A DNA stretch of 43,674 bases from Bacteroidales bacterium (GTDB taxonomy: Bacteria; Bacteroidota; Bacteroidia; Bacteroidales; UBA932). Made by a program: the position numbers and the translations under genes. Shown piece by piece: positions 2,473 to 25,348 of this stretch (positions within the stretch are counted from its first letter, which is position 1; each line of letters opens with the position of its first letter). Under the pieces are notes generated by a model. It had not been told where the DNA came from. It saw only the letters and a program-made list of their open reading frames with translations, and did not search any database. The DNA lies in the NCBI GenBank assembly GCA_022777585.1, contig JALFFZ010000009.1, positions 1 to 43,674 of the forward strand. The letters are read 5' to 3'.

Positions 2473-3777
2473 CTATTCTTCCGTAACCTTCTCGATGTTG
2501 TCAGGGAGTTTCTTGACTATAATCTTGTCAATTCTGGCACCGTCCATATCAGCAACCTCAAATGAGAATCCCTGCCACTCAGTCTTTTCCCCTGATTTCG
2601 GAACATGCTGGAGATTCTCCAGAAGAAGACCTCCCACTGTGGAGAAATCGTAATCTTCCATATTCTCTCCGAGGTCGAAATGCGAAAGGAAGTCATAGAT
2701 GGAGCATTGTCCGTCCACCAGCCATCCATCGCCGTCCTTGCGCGCAATGATGTCAGGCTCCTTCATGAGCTCCTGAGGGGCCATATTGCCAACCAATGCG
2801 TCGAATATGTCCTTCAGGGATATGATACCCTCCAGCCCGCCGAACTCGTCACAGACAAGCGCCCTGTGAATCCGCTCCGACTTCATATATTCGAGCACTG
2901 TGTATATGCTCATATTCTCATGGACATAGTGTGCCTCCTTCATCATCTTCCTGAGGTCCAGATGCTTGTCCCTTCTCAGAGCTGTCACGTAATCCTTGAT
3001 GGAAAGAACGCCGACAACGTGGTCAATATCTCCGTCCACGACTGGGTACTGCTCGAAAATGGTGCCCTCTATAGTCTTGATGATCTCCTCCTCAGTCATC
3101 TCGAGGTCCAGCCATACTATGTCATCCCTCAATGTCATTATAGTGCTGACACTCAAGTCTCCCAATGTGAACACTCGTTCCACGATATCCTGCTCCACTG
3201 GAGAAACCTCACCTTCGTCCTTGCCTTCCTCTATGATTGACTTGATTTCATCCTCTGTAACCTTGGACTCCCTTTCCTTGATGCCCAGTGCCTTGGTACA
3301 CAATGCAGTGCTTTTGGCAAGCAACCACACCACAGGGGATGCGATCCAGGAGACGAATCGCATAAGTCCGGCCAGAGTCTTTGCTACCTTTTCCGGATTT
3401 GACATTGCAATGCGCTTCGGAATAAGCTCTCCGAGAAGGATGGAGAGAAACATTACAATGAATACGATTATTGCCTTTGAAAGTACTGAGGCAGTACCGG
3501 CGCCGACACCGACGTATGTCAGAAATGAAGCAAAGTCGCGGGCCAGCGTGTCCCCGGAAAAAATACCGGTCAGGATGCCCACAAGAGTCACTCCCATCTG
3601 GACCGTAGAAAGGAATTTGTCCGGATCCGATGAAATCTTTACGGCTGCCCTCGCAGCCTTGTCTCCCTTGGATGCCTCAGCATTGAGTTTGGATTTTCTG
3701 GAAGAGATCATTGCAATCTCCGCCATCGAGAAAACTCCGTTGATAAAAATGAGCAGGAGTATTATAAAAGCTTCCAT
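2473..3777 (-). CDS. Hemolysin/CNNM-type transporter with CBS pair and CorC_HlyC domain
   Basis: N-terminal CNNM transmembrane region (FINGVFSMAEIAMISSRKSKL), CBS region, C-terminal CorC_HlyC-like domain. Confidence 0.9.
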   Translation of the reverse strand: MEAFIILLLIFINGVFSMAEIAMISSRKSKLNAEASKGDKAARAAVKISSDPDKFLSTVQMGVTLVGILTGIFSGDTLARDFASFLTYVGVGAGTASVLSKAIIVFIVMFLSILLGELIPKRIAMSNPEKVAKTLAGLMRFVSWIASPVVWLLAKSTALCTKALGIKERESKVTEDEIKSIIEEGKDEGEVSPVEQDIVERVFTLGDLSVSTIMTLRDDIVWLDLEMTEEEIIKTIEGTIFEQYPVVDGDIDHVVGVLSIKDYVTALRRDKHLDLRKMMKEAHYVHENMSIYTVLEYMKSERIHRALVCDEFGGLEGIISLKDIFDALVGNMAPQELMKEPDIIARKDGDGWLVDGQCSIYDFLSHFDLGENMEDYDFSTVGGLLLENLQHVPKSGEKTEWQGFSFEVADMDGARIDKIIVKKLPDNIEKVTEE

Positions 3778-5356: not shown

Positions 5357-7351
5357 CTATTTCTCCGAGGGTATTGCGCCATCGGCAGGAGTTTCAGGCT
5401 CAGATTCCTGTTTATCAAGAACTTCATCCCTTTCTTCCTCAGGCTTTACCTTCGGGCCCAGAATGGCTTCCACGTCTTCTGCGAAAATGACTTCCTTCTC
5501 CAGAAGGAGGGCTGCCATCTTCAGGAATCCTTCCTTATGATCTTCGAGAATGGCCCTGGTGCGGTCGTGAATGTTCTTCACAATCTCCTTTACCTCCTCG
5601 TCGATAATTTCTGAGGTTTTTTCGCTGTAAGGCTTGGTAAGGTCATATCCCCGTGCTCCCGTTGAGTCGTAGAAGGACAATGTGCCTACTTTTTCGCTCA
5701 TTCCATAATACTTGACCATCCCGTAGGCCATCTGTGTCAGGCGTTCGAGATCATTCTGGGCACCTGTGGAAGGCTCCCCGTTCACGATCTCCTCGGCAAC
5801 GCGGCCTCCTATCAGAGAACACATCTCGTCAATCATCTGGGCCTTTGTCCAAAGTTTTCTCTCCTCCGGCAGATACCAGGCGGCACCGAGTGCCTGTCCC
5901 CTCGGGATCAGGGTGACCTTGAAAAGAGGATTTGCATAAGGCAGAAGCCAGCTTACAGTCGCATGACCGGCCTCATGATGGGCAATGGAGCGTTTCTCGG
6001 CAGGTGTTATTATCGAAGCCTTCCTTTCCAGTCCGCCAATGATCCTGTCCACGGCGTCGAGGAAATCCTGCCTGTCAATCGCGGTCTTGTTCTTCCTTGC
6101 CGCAGTGAGAGCTGCCTCGTTGCAGACATTGGCAATGTCAGCCCCGGAGAATCCCGGGGTATGCTTGGCCATGAAATCGACGTCGAAGTCAGGCTCAAGC
6201 TTGAGACCCTTTATATGGACCTTGAAAATCTCGCATCTCTCCTTGAGTTCCGGGAGATCAACATGAATCTGCCTGTCGAACCTGCCCGCGCGAAGCAGGG
6301 CCTTGTCGAGTATGTCGGCCCTGTTGGTAGCCGCAAGGATAATTACTCCGGAATTGGTATCGAAGCCATCCATCTCCGTAAGAAGCTGATTGAGAGTATT
6401 TTCCCTCTCATCATTGGAAGAGAATCCGACGTTCTTTCCTCTCGCCCTGCCGACTGCATCTATCTCGTCGATGAAGACGATGCACGGCGCCTTCTCCTTG
6501 GCCTGGCGGAAAAGATCCCTCACCCTGGAGGCTCCCACACCCACGAACATTTCCACGAAATCGGAGCCGGAAATGCTGAAGAACGGTACATTGGCCTCGC
6601 CTGCAACAGCCTTCGCCAGCAATGTCTTGCCTGTGCCTGGAGGACCTACGAGCAGAGCGCCCTTCGGAATCTTGCCTCCGAGAGAGGTGTATTTCTTCGG
6701 ATTCTTGAGGAAATCGACGATCTCCATCACCTCTTCCTTAGCTCCGTAGAGTCCGGCCACGTCCTTGAATGTGACATTGACCATATTCTTGTCGGCAAGC
6801 TTGCCGGTGGATTTTCCCACATTGAAAATGCCTCCCTGGCCGCCAGGGCCGCCTCCCATGTTCCGGTTGAATCCCCTGAACATGAAGACCCACATCAGTA
6901 TAAGAAGGACCGGGAAAAGGAACCAGTTCAGAATCTGGCCCCACATATTGTCATTGTTCTCCAGGATCACCTTGAAATGTGAGCCTTCAGGCAATTCCGC
7001 ATTCAGTCGGCCGAATTCATTCTCAGGGTCGAACTTGGAGGAGACATAGAACCAGAAATGCGGGGAGGAATTCGGCACTTTGCCATTGAACCTTTCCGCG
7101 TATTTCTCGAGCCTGTCAGGGCGGATGCTTATCTCACCCTTGAAATCATTGCGGACGAAGACGATGTCCTTGACATCTCCGGCCCGGATCATTGTCTCGA
7201 CCTCCGCCCACTCTACCTTCTGCGGCTTTGTACCTGAATTGCTGAAGAGCAGCCAGACTATTCCGGCGATAATCAGGAGGTAAAGCCACGATATTCCGAG
7301 ATTGACAGTTACAATCTTCGGTTTGTTTTCGTTCTTGTTCTTGTTTGCCAT
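5357..7351 (-). CDS. ftsH: ATP-dependent zinc metalloprotease FtsH
   Basis: Walker [12 protein letters not shown] region, HEAGH zinc motif, N-terminal TM segments. Confidence 0.98.
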
Positions 7352-21029: not shown

Positions 21030-23060
21030 TTACCAGACTTTTACTCTGTTCTCAGGAGCGACGTAAAGCGAGTCGCCAGGCTGGATGTTGAAGGCATCGT
21101 ACCAGTAGTCGCACTGTGCGAGCGCACCGTTGACGCGGAGTCTTGCAATCGAATGTACATCCATCATTGTGAGATACCTGAGGATTTCTTCGCTTGCGGT
21201 GTCAGCCCATACGTTGGCATAGGAGAGGAAGAATCTCTGCTCAGGGGTGAAGCCGTTGTCTGTGTCAAGTCTGCCGTGTTTCTTCTGCCACATCTGGAAG
21301 GCTTCGTAGGCGATATTGAGTCCGCCGTGGTCGGCAAGGTTTTCTCCGAGGCAGAGGGCTCCGTTGGCTTTGAGTTCGCCAGGAATTACCCAAAGTGAAT
21401 TGAAGAATTCCACCATCTGGGAGCAAGGCTTGCTGAATCCTTCGGTATCGGCTTCGGTCCACCAGTCAGAGAGGTTGCCGTCTTTGTTGTATTTGCGTCC
21501 CTGGTCGTCGAAGCCGTGTGTCATTTCGTGTCCGATTACGACTCCAATCGCACCGTAATTAGCTGCTGCATCGGCTGTTATGCTATAGAGAGGTGGCTGG
21601 AGGAAGCCTGCAGGGAAGCAGATTTCATTGGTGGTCGGATTGTAATATGCATTGACCATCTGGGCCGGCATATGCCACTCGTCGGTATCGACAGGCTTGT
21701 TGTATTTCTTGTTGTAGTTGAGTTCCCAGTAGAATTTGCGGGCTGCCCTGATGTTGTCGTAGAGGGTGAGCTCAGGATCGACGGTGAGTCCGCTGATGTC
21801 GTCCCATTTGTCGGGATAGCCGACCTTGACTTTGTAGGCTGCAAGTTTGTCGAGGGCTATTGCCTTGGTGGAGTCGCACATCCAGTCCTGCTTCCTGATG
21901 ATTTCTGCAAGGGATGCCTGGAGATTGGAAATCATTTCGAGCATCTCGTCCTTGGCTTCTTTCGAGAAGTATCTCTTGACGTACATCTGGCCTACAGCAT
22001 CGCTCATGAAGTTGTCCACGAGGGATTCGGCCATTTTCCATCTCGGGGTCTTCTGCTGGACTCCGTAGAGTTTCTTGTTGAAGTCGAAGTTTTCGTCGGT
22101 GAAGTCGTCGGACAATACTGATGATGCTCCGGAGATGAGCTGCCAGCGGTAAATGTCCTTGAGGTCTTCGAGGGATGCTGTCATAAGGATTTCACAGGCT
22201 TTTGCAACTGGTTCAGGCTGACCGAGATCCACTTCCCTTGTAAGATTGTATCTGTAGTTGTCGAGGTAGGTTCTCCAGTCGAATCCGCCGCAGATGGCGG
22301 TGAGGGAATCTACTGTAACCTTGTGGTAGTTGGCGTCAGAGTCGCGCTGCTTTTCCATTGAATAATAAGGTTCTGCGATGGCGGTCTCGATGGCCCAGAT
22401 TCTTTCCATCTTGTCTCTGGACTCTTCTGCGCCGTAGCCTGTGAGGACGAAGAGGCGTACCATATGCTCTTTCATGGCTTCCCTGATCATTGTGTTCTGC
22501 GGGTCGTCGCTGAGGTAGTAGTCTCTGTTTCCGAGTGAAAGACCGTCCTGGCTGATGCAGACGATGTTGTTTCTGGAATCTTTCTCGTCAGCGCCGACGA
22601 AGATGCCGAAGAGAAGGTTGTCGTGCTCTCTGGCGCAATGTGCAAGCAGGTCCTCCCTGGTCTGGATGGCGTCGATTTCTGCAATGTGGGCGCGGAGTGG
22701 AGCTGCTCCTTCGCTGTTGAGACGGACCGAGTCCATCATCATGTTGTAGAGGTCACCGATTTTCTGCTCGATGCTGCCTTTCTTGTTCTCGCCTGCGGCA
22801 ATGTCCTGGATGAGGGCTGCAAGGGCCTTGATGTTGTCATCCTGAACCTTTCCTACGGTTCCCCACATAGGATACTCCTTAGGCTGAGGGTTGAGTTCAG
22901 CCCAATGCCCTGTGGCATATCTTGCGAAATCGTCGCCTGCGCGGACGGTGGTGTCCATGTAGGCGTAGTTGATGCCGGCGTTCCTGTCCGGTGTTCTTGT
23001 GCATCCTGCCGCTAGCAGCAAGGTGCAGATTGTCAGAAGTTTTGCTTTCATATTTATCAT
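21030..23060 (-). CDS. M13 family metallopeptidase (neprilysin/PepO-like) lipoprotein
   Basis: GVVIGHEMTHGFDDQGRKYNKDGNLSDWW (HExxH), ENLADHGGL, lipobox LLAAGC. Start may be MKAKLL at 23051. Confidence 0.95.
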   Translation of the reverse strand: MINMKAKLLTICTLLLAAGCTRTPDRNAGINYAYMDTTVRAGDDFARYATGHWAELNPQPKEYPMWGTVGKVQDDNIKALAALIQDIAAGENKKGSIEQKIGDLYNMMMDSVRLNSEGAAPLRAHIAEIDAIQTREDLLAHCAREHDNLLFGIFVGADEKDSRNNIVCISQDGLSLGNRDYYLSDDPQNTMIREAMKEHMVRLFVLTGYGAEESRDKMERIWAIETAIAEPYYSMEKQRDSDANYHKVTVDSLTAICGGFDWRTYLDNYRYNLTREVDLGQPEPVAKACEILMTASLEDLKDIYRWQLISGASSVLSDDFTDENFDFNKKLYGVQQKTPRWKMAESLVDNFMSDAVGQMYVKRYFSKEAKDEMLEMISNLQASLAEIIRKQDWMCDSTKAIALDKLAAYKVKVGYPDKWDDISGLTVDPELTLYDNIRAARKFYWELNYNKKYNKPVDTDEWHMPAQMVNAYYNPTTNEICFPAGFLQPPLYSITADAAANYGAIGVVIGHEMTHGFDDQGRKYNKDGNLSDWWTEADTEGFSKPCSQMVEFFNSLWVIPGELKANGALCLGENLADHGGLNIAYEAFQMWQKKHGRLDTDNGFTPEQRFFLSYANVWADTASEEILRYLTMMDVHSIARLRVNGALAQCDYWYDAFNIQPGDSLYVAPENRVKVW

Positions 23061-23154: not shown

Positions 23155-23331
23155 CACTATATTTAGATATGTTGTACTTTTTCGATGTGGACAATGCAAA
23201 ATTATATATGACTGGTAATTAGCATGTTAAGTGATATCAACGTGGACATTACCATCAAAAGGCCTGAGAATCGGCCGTATTGTCATTGCTAACTGGGCTA
23301 CGGAATGGGGTGCCGGAATGGAACGTGGCGG

Positions 23332-23438
23332 CCGGAATGGTACCTCATTTCTCCGGACCAGGCCCTCCCAAACTGCGTTTGGGCCCCTCCCTCTAGTGCC
23401 GAGGGCGGCAAGTCCTGCGAAATGAGGTACCATCCCGG
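23332..23438. repeat. Head element copy 1: 107 bp with 20-bp terminal inverted repeats and an inner hairpin
   Basis: CCGGAATGGTACCTCATTTC (23332-23351) vs GAAATGAGGTACCATCCCGG (23419-23438), 19/20 complementary; inner CCCAAAC-TGC-GTTTGGG at 23367-23383. Confidence 0.88.
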
Positions 23439-23471
23439 CTCATGGCATTGACGTAGAACTGGATTTGCGGC

Positions 23472-24207
23472 GAACCTTCCATGCTGGAGGGCTGAATCGT
23501 GGATGGTTCAAGGTCAAAAGGGTGAACCTTCCACGTTGTATGCCCGAATCGTGGACGGTTCGAGGTCAAAAAGGCGAACCTTCCACGAATTAGGCACGTA
23601 TCACGGATGGTTCATTTCTCAGAAGCGAACCTTCCATGCTGAAAGCCGATATCATGGAAGGTTCAATATCTAGGGGCGTACCTTCCACGCTGTATGTCTG
23701 AATCGTGGACGGTTCGAGGTCAAAAGGGCGAACCTTCCACGAATTAGGTGCGTATCACGGATGGTTCGATATAAAACAACGGAACCTTCCATGCTGAAAG
23801 CCGATATCATGGAAGGTTCAATGTCAACGGGGTGAACCTTCCACGCTGTATGCCCGAATCGTGGATGGTTCAAGGTCAAAAAGGTGAACCTTCCACGAAT
23901 TAGGTGCGTATCACGGATGGTTCATTTCTCAGAAGCGAACCTTCCATGCTGGAGGCTGATATCATGGATGGTTCGATATAAAAACAACGGAACCTACCAT
24001 GCTGAAGGGCTGAATCGTGGATAGTTCGAGGTCAAAAGGGCTAACCTTCCACGAATTAGGTGCGTATCACGGATGGTTCATGTCTCAGAAGCGAACCATC
24101 CACGCTGGAGGTTGATATCATGGAAGGTTCAATATCTAGGGGCGAACCATCCACGCTGCTAGTCGATATTATGGACGGTTCATATCTTAAGCACGAACCT
24201 CCCCACG
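23472..24207. repeat. Hairpin-type tandem array 1: about 14 units of 51-52 bp plus a terminal half-unit
   Basis: Units GAACC[T/A]TCCA[C/T]G-N14-C[G/A]TGGA[A/C/T]GGTTC-N13/14 read directly; spacers recur in defined classes. Confidence 0.92.
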
Positions 24208-24251: not shown

Positions 24252-24327
24252 GCACGGAGAACAGCGAAGTTTGGGCCTTGAGGCGATGTTGCGAATGGTA
24301 TGTTTTCATTGTAATGGAACGCGGGTG

Positions 24328-24434
24328 CCGGAATGGTACCTCATTTCTCCGGACCTGGCCCTCCCAAACTGCGTTTGGGCCCCTCCCTCTAGTGCCGAGG
24401 GCGGCAAGTCCTGCGAAATGAGGTACCATACCGG
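24328..24434. repeat. Head element copy 2: 107 bp with 20-bp terminal inverted repeats
   Basis: CCGGAATGGTACCTCATTTC (24328-24347) vs GAAATGAGGTACCATACCGG (24415-24434); only a few differences from copy 1. Confidence 0.88.
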
Positions 24435-24467
24435 CTCATAGCATTGACGTAGAGCTGGATTTGCGGC

Positions 24468-24790
24468 GAACCTTCCATGCTGGAGGGCTGAATCGTGGAC
24501 GGTTCGATATAAAACAACGGAACCTTCCATGCTGAAAGCCGATATCATGGAAGGTTCAATGTCAACGGGGTGAACCTTCCACGCTGTATGTCCGAATCGT
24601 GGAAGGTTCGAGGTCAAAAGGGCGAACCATCCACGCCTGTAGTCGATATCATGGAAGGTTCAATATCTAGGGGCGAACCTTCCATGCTGGAGGGCCATAT
24701 CACGGATGGTTCGATATAAAACAACGGAACCTTCCATGCTGAAGGCCGATATCATGGACGGTTCATATCTCAAGCACAAACCTCCCCACG
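24468..24790. repeat. Hairpin-type tandem array 2: 6 units plus terminal half-unit
   Basis: Same 12-nt motif and spacer classes as array 1; ends in the same divergent half-unit aacctccccacg. Confidence 0.92.
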
Positions 24791-24822: not shown

Positions 24823-25020
24823 GCCATCAGGCGCCGCGCGAAGGAATGCGAAGGGTTGGCCGGAGGCGATGGTGCGCCCGGAGCGCCCTCCCCCGTAATG
24901 GGGGCAGGGGGGAAATATAAACAAGCCATCAGGCGCCGCGCGAAGAAATGCGAAGCGTCGGCCAGCGGCGATGGTGCGCACGGAGCGCACACCCACGTAA
25001 TAGGGACAGGGTGGGAAATA
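24823..25020. repeat. GC-rich imperfect tandem repeat, 2 x about 100 bp, abutting rnpB
   Basis: GCCATCAGGCGCCGCGCGAAG[G/A]AATGCGAAG...GGCGATGGTGCGC..CGGAGCGC...GTAAT...GGGAAATA at 24823 and 24925. Confidence 0.85.
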
Positions 25021-25022
25021 AA

Positions 25023-25348
25023 AAGGCGGGACCGTAAGCCGGTTTCTGTTTTTGAATCTGCCATTTATCTACGCAACCTACCCCCTGACATCGGGCGGGC
25101 AGTCCTCATCTGTCAGTATATTTGGTTTTGCAGGCCCTGGTGCCGTACCCGCAATACATCGCTGCAATGCGCCGTGGGCTCTTACCCCACATTTTCACCA
25201 TCACTTCCGGGACTGGCCCGGAGGCAGACATTCTCTGTTACGGCTGGCAAAAGATTACTCCCATCTGCGATTTCCGCAGCAGGGCGCCCTTTCCTGTCCG
25301 GACTTTCCTCACCTGACTTGTGACAGGCGCGGCAGATCGTCCCGCCTT
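25023..25348 (-). ncRNA. rnpB: RNase P RNA (class A)
   Basis: Reverse strand contains GTGAGGAAAGTCCGGACAGGAAAGGGCGCCCTGCTGC near the 5' side and CAGAAACCGGCTTACGGTCCCGCC at the 3' end; terminal P1 pairing AAGGCGGGAC / GTCCCGCCTT, then a short T run. Confidence 0.95.

Follow-up and report, generated by a model that had tools for sequence, protein, structure and literature searches.

Two arrays of alternating half-sites

A stretch between two genes of a Bacteroidales bacterium carries the same 12-bp motif many times over, in alternating orientation and at nearly constant spacing. This raises the question of what kind of element the array is, and what recognizes or copies it. We addressed the question in a window of 43,674 bp (the whole stretch of DNA that was analyzed), in the genome and in the genus. 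The genome is a 2.66-Mb draft of 178 contigs with 87.7% completeness, and belongs to a Bacteroidales genus with more than 400 species. The relevant features of the window are the following.

21030..23060, minus strand: 676-aa ORF, a putative M13-type metallopeptidase judged by eye from HExxH and other motifs
23331..23439, plus strand: 109-bp leader that precedes array 1 and has inverted repeats at its ends (GCCGGAATGGTACCTCATTTC ... GAAATGAGGTACCATCCCGGC)
23472..24181, plus strand: array 1, 28 alternating half-sites GAACCNTCCRYG that form 14 palindromes (12-14-12) with a unit of 51-52 bp
24327..24435, plus strand: leader, second copy, preceding array 2
24468..24764, plus strand: array 2, 12 half-sites that form 6 palindromes, with a unit of 51-52 bp as in array 1
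24823-25024: G+C-rich 102-bp repeat, present twice between array 2 and the RNase P RNA gene
25019..25348, minus strand: RNase P RNA gene (RF00010), the upstream neighbor in the direction of transcription

The start of the metallopeptidase ORF points toward array 1 from 412 bp away. RNase P RNA was the sole match in an Rfam search of the window.

A preliminary description, drawn up from the letters of the window, proposed one array of strictly alternating half-sites. That array is real: 28 half-sites with at most one mismatch alternate without exception from 23472 to 24181, and a degenerate 29th follows at ~24195. Array 2, however, was missing from that description. Exact matches to GAACCNTCCRYG number 35 in the window, versus 0.09 expected from shuffled sequences.

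In both arrays, a 12-bp arm is followed by a 14-bp spacer, a second 12-bp arm and then 13-14 bp; the arms and the spacer they flank constitute a 38-nt palindrome. The inner spacer has drifted in sequence and kept its length, and it has a weak directional consensus of its own, approximately CTGAAGGCCGATAT. In each array, an imperfect palindrome of 51-52 bp is therefore repeated in tandem and in one direction. Within the arms, positions 10-11 are purine-pyrimidine (AC, AT, GC or GT) on both sides, position 2 is also variable, if more weakly, and position 6 can be any base. The variability at this sixth base had been attributed to the second arm, but it affects both. The other arm positions are conserved. 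A coding repeat is ruled out, since the unit switches between 51 and 52 bp and no reading frame is kept.

The leader and the start of the array are duplicated in the window, 996 bp apart and with 86% identity. Leader copies without an array occur elsewhere in the genome (G000:C132, C51 with two copies, and C82). The leader is thus a repeat separate from the array, and looks like a second dispersed palindromic repeat family.

Copies across the genome and the genus

All genome-wide counts derive from pattern searches and BLAST searches. According to the preliminary description, a motif that is frequent and randomly oriented across the genome, or a spacing that is lost in other copies, would count against its reading. 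Neither is the case. The motif is concentrated in arrays: GAACCWTCCAYG has 108 matches, nearly all of them within arrays, versus 0 for a reversed control. We call these arrays, which occupy around ten intergenic places, GAACC arrays.

Contigs C49, C66, C67, C113, C122, C150 (two arrays) and C161: further GAACC arrays
Contig C74: single GAACC unit

All lie between ORFs, in unrelated gene contexts, and some run into contig breaks. In total, ten arrays contain 138 units of this short imperfect palindrome (12-14-12). The spacing seen in the window is kept in the other copies. The inner step, from a plus to a minus half-site, is 26 bp in 138 of 138 units; a unit was scored only if its second arm lay 26 bp on, and position lists show no other inner spacing. 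The outer step, from minus to plus, is 25 bp (58 links) or 26 bp (69) in 127 of 131 links, the others being 24 bp (3) and 27 bp (1). Half-sites alternate at 26 and 25-26 bp, but the whole palindromes share one direction.

The motif is nearly private to one species. Two of 400 genomes of the genus contain the paired motif, namely the present genome and G136, where it sits at a contig end (L067). DNA similar to the array was not found in plasmid records, and the paired motif matched no viral contigs. In an empty-site comparison via rnpB synteny, the metallopeptidase gene did not adjoin rnpB in the relatives retrieved.

Could the arrays be ordinary tandem repeats of a palindrome, that grew through slippage during replication and through unequal exchange, without a dedicated enzyme? 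Units within one array resemble each other most, and the duplication of the leader and array start inside the window also fits such a process. However, the spread to around ten loci requires mobility, the half-sites are conserved while the spacers drift, and a 51-53 bp unit recurs in unrelated sequences beside RAYT genes (see below). We consider this explanation very unlikely.

Reading by eye, we noticed a tRNA-like sequence close to several arrays, both in the present genome and in the sister species G011. The one in L023 resembles a 3′ tRNA fragment.

L023, ~3119-3180: tRNA-like sequence
L024, ~1580-1660: tRNA-like sequence
L069, ~2300-2335: tRNA-like sequence
L070, ~2400-2445: tRNA-like sequence

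Hairpins or duplex recognition

The preliminary description left a choice between a chain of hairpins and a regular protein-binding array. Arms that are conserved in order to pair should show compensatory changes at their variable positions. We found no covariation between arms, whether within a palindrome or across the outer spacer, and arm positions 6, 10 and 11 pair as often as in shuffled data or slightly less. A chain of RNA hairpins is therefore disfavored, with inner as well as outer pairing, whereas recognition of duplex DNA is compatible with the data. When four units were folded as single-stranded DNA, two formed perfect hairpins and two did little better than shuffles. The missing covariation fits either duplex recognition with fixed spacing or a REP-type stem that tolerates mismatches. 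In E. coli REPs, two conserved mismatches within the stem are required (PMC8266576).

As a duplex-DNA binding array, each 12-14-12 dyad would hold a dimeric protein, with half-sites 26 bp (2.5 turns) apart and units around five turns apart, resulting in a phased filament or in a chromosome-organizing, regulatory or segregation site. The inner spacing of 26 bp, invariant in spite of the drift in spacer sequence, argues for this idea, as does the lack of covariation between arms. The purine-pyrimidine degeneracy at positions 10-11 resembles indirect readout, and a similar unit length recurs among unrelated arrays. However, our analysis identified no candidate binding protein, and the arrays are confined almost entirely to one species, in gene contexts that have nothing in common. 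Moreover, the RAYT genes that lie next to related arrays in the genus suggest a mobile element more than a site that serves the host. A duplex-binding array is thus an unlikely explanation, if one with real points in its favor.

A serine recombinase between two arrays

The two arrays on contig C150 lie on both sides of a gene that is close to the family model of the Mpi master DNA invertase, at distances of 190 bp and 33 bp.

L028 (G000:C150), 5625-6233: serine recombinase gene

The arrays could be binding or recombination sites of this Mpi-type enzyme, used for inversions or for the copying of sites. A remote homolog in G011 lies ~500 bp from an array of that species, which adds to the association. 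The comparison with relatives of the gene does not support it: other loci of the subfamily that we examined have no 52-bp array, GAACC arrays are found beside this one gene only, and in G136, which alone among the other genomes shares the motif, there is no close recombinase (E below 1e-55). Invertase crossover sites follow a 12-2-12 arrangement, a textbook geometry that half-site centers 26 bp apart do not fit. The C150 arrays also run mostly in one direction, a pattern found around RAYTs as well. We regard the serine recombinase as an improbable partner of the arrays.

This recombinase gene is situated within a cluster of PI-PLC-X-like lipoprotein genes (L028 616-3724, 5625-6233 and 6843-8339). 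The only GAACC units of G136 (L067) are upstream of a gene of similar appearance.

RAYT-adjacent arrays in sister species

The array near the G011 recombinase homolog has 52-bp units and a palindrome quite different from that of the GAACC arrays. This palindrome family is dispersed at six places in G011, and on contig G011:C7 its arrays lie on both sides of a gene for a 285-aa Y1/HUH transposase.

L068:2628-3485, minus strand: RAYT gene of G011

The G011 protein scores below the cut-offs of current family models, as does its Bacteroidales clade: 21.8 bits against PF01797 (cut-off 23) and 39 bits against NCBIfam REP_Tyr_transpos (cut-off 80). Its predicted structure most resembles that of a RAYT. 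The AlphaFold model has a mean pLDDT of 87, and its best structural match is 4er8, a complex of the E. coli RAYT with a REP hairpin (E 4.2e-5), with IS200-type transposases next. Both histidines of the NHxH motif (H50, H52), the tyrosine of AYVxMN (Y110) and a tryptophan are kept in 70 of 70 sister-species RAYTs.

Of 151 genomes of the genus, 126 contain RAYT-like relatives of the G011 transposase, frequently several of them. Around the first 30 loci, arrays with a period of 51-53 bp adjoin about one third, with a sequence that differs from family to family. A second set comprised 40 loci chosen by protein score, with up to 20 kb of context each. Of the 17 tandem arrays located there no more than 500 bp from a RAYT, 10 have a period of 51-53 bp, versus 0 of 7 in the remaining 624 kb. 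When the 70 loci were pooled and assessed with a repeat measure of its own, a 51-53 bp palindromic repeat was present in 25 of 138 RAYT flanks (19 of 70 loci), versus 2 of 859 control pieces. The effect is large, and the corresponding Fisher p-value of 1.3e-20 is generous since the flanks are partly related through their RAYTs and genomes. Remote RAYTs have arrays of 50-51 bp too. Another RAYT-like gene of G011 has a nearby repeat with an 84-bp period (L116 4-239), so the 52-bp rule is not universal.

The arrays in sister species (G011, G071, G107, G117, G073, G066, G159 and others) share with the GAACC arrays a unit of 50-53 bp built on an imperfect palindrome. They run in one direction on both sides of the gene, and dispersed copies were shown for G011. 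Unlike the GAACC arrays, they have a RAYT next to them, their palindromes are unrelated in sequence, and their arm and loop lengths are different. The exact 26-bp spacing of half-sites is a property of the GAACC family, but not of the RAYT-adjacent families.

A further, tentative reading is a length-locked repeat system. Unrelated palindromic arrays of this genus might converge on 51-53 bp, close to five turns of the helix, if duplex DNA is measured by the RAYT machinery or by a partner protein. The GAACC array would then have become a symmetric binding array, phased at 26 bp, that outlasts its RAYT and has perhaps been taken over by another protein. We view this as possible but doubtful.

RAYT-like genes of the present genome

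The present genome has two RAYT-like genes. Both are remote (26-27% identity), neither adjoins a GAACC array, and their flanks contain other repeats or none. A cognate RAYT flanked by the GAACC repeat was not found in this genome, whose completeness of 87.7% leaves absence unproven. Also, tblastn detected no RAYT fragments or remnants at the GAACC array loci.

One of the two genes, that of L110 (G000:C175), lies between two near-identical copies of a repeat whose ends are inverted, ATAGCTGCAGGCCAGCA ... TGCTGGCCTGCAGCTAT. This repeat is probably the REP-type element of that gene.

L110, ~1353-1440 and ~2489-2575: repeat flanking the RAYT-like gene

A proposed origin of the GAACC arrays

The comparative evidence points beyond the preliminary description, to a REP/BIME-type array such as those that this genus has in association with RAYT transposases. 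The GAACC arrays are probably a species-specific, BIME-like family of REP repeats that was amplified and moved by a RAYT. We infer their membership in the RAYT-array class from the period, palindromy, intergenic placement, dispersal and species restriction that they share with the RAYT-adjacent arrays; every enzymatic step below is likewise inferred. The assignment is a probable one that draws on shared unit length, palindromy and behavior rather than on a direct link. Several observations run against it: no RAYT is adjacent and the two RAYT-like genes of the genome are remote, one pair of arrays surrounds a serine recombinase, GTAG is absent, the arms do not compensate each other, and the exact 26-bp spacing of half-sites has no counterpart in the RAYT-adjacent families.

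Under the RAYT explanation, the GAACC palindromes would be a passive, non-autonomous substrate, multiplied as head-to-tail units of 51-52 bp and carried to about ten sites. The RAYT, an HUH/Y1 single-strand transposase, would recognize each palindrome as a folded single strand. By cleaving and rejoining DNA at the palindrome, it could place copies of the unit side by side and into new intergenic locations. The alternating orientation would simply reflect the two arms of successive palindromes. Given that some arrays end at contig breaks, the RAYT behind the motif may be unassembled; equally, it may already have been lost.

The mechanism by which RAYTs multiply REPs, and the reason for the regular spacing of BIMEs, are unsolved problems in the field. 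This genus is a natural experiment on them: hundreds of its species have been sequenced, its genomes carry several RAYTs, and its arrays, though unrelated in sequence, are near-constant in unit length. Unit length can be set against the phylogeny of the RAYTs, and matched enzyme-array pairs are at hand for studies of binding and cleavage.

Comparison with known systems

The serine recombinase gene of C150 reaches 250 bits with the Mpi family model, whose cut-off is 272. The gene's relatives elsewhere lack arrays, and the geometry of the GAACC arrays is unlike that of invertase crossover sites.

Subclass 2.6 (group 5) RAYTs likewise occur in Bacteroidetes, have the NHxH motif, and are associated with repeats that lack a GT[AG]G foot and have copies elsewhere in the genome (PMC6006769). 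Subclass 2.6 and class 3 are the known exceptions to the GT[AG]G foot, and the Bacteroidetes members of subclass 2.6 are flanked by atypical palindromes without GTAG. The RAYTs studied here differ in length and in one motif: they have ~285 aa versus the 179 listed there for subclass 2.6, and their Y-motif is AYVxMN versus YIH[QN]NP (PMC6006769). The passages on this subclass do not mention a fixed 52-bp tandem unit, and we found no description of one in the open-access literature.

BIMEs are REPs at regular spacing and in alternating orientation. Roughly one RAYT gene in three has a BIME next to it, and in E. coli BIMEs border rayT on either side (PMC2817692). We checked the surroundings of rayT in E. 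coli K-12 (L197), where two inverted REPs make up a unit of 101 bp. The BIME-2/REP arrays of E. coli resemble the GAACC arrays in being imperfect palindromes with mismatched stems, in their regular alternating arrangement, and in being intergenic and dispersed. BIME-2 around rayT differs by its GTAG foot, its two inverted REPs per 101 bp and the adjoining RAYT. The GAACC arrays have one 38-nt palindrome per 51-52 bp with equally spaced half-sites, no GTAG (0 GTAG and 2 GTGG in 254 reads of the spacers beside the palindromes) and no adjacent RAYT. Overall, the arrays described here resemble the general BIME class in their architecture and copy number, in their location between genes and in a turnover that is species-specific. 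They depart from it in the near-fixed 51-53 bp unit, the equal half-site spacing of the GAACC family and the absence of the GTAG foot. The GAACC arrays are most likely the form that REP/BIME, a known class of self-spreading bacterial repeat, takes in this species, with an unusually fixed 52-bp unit.
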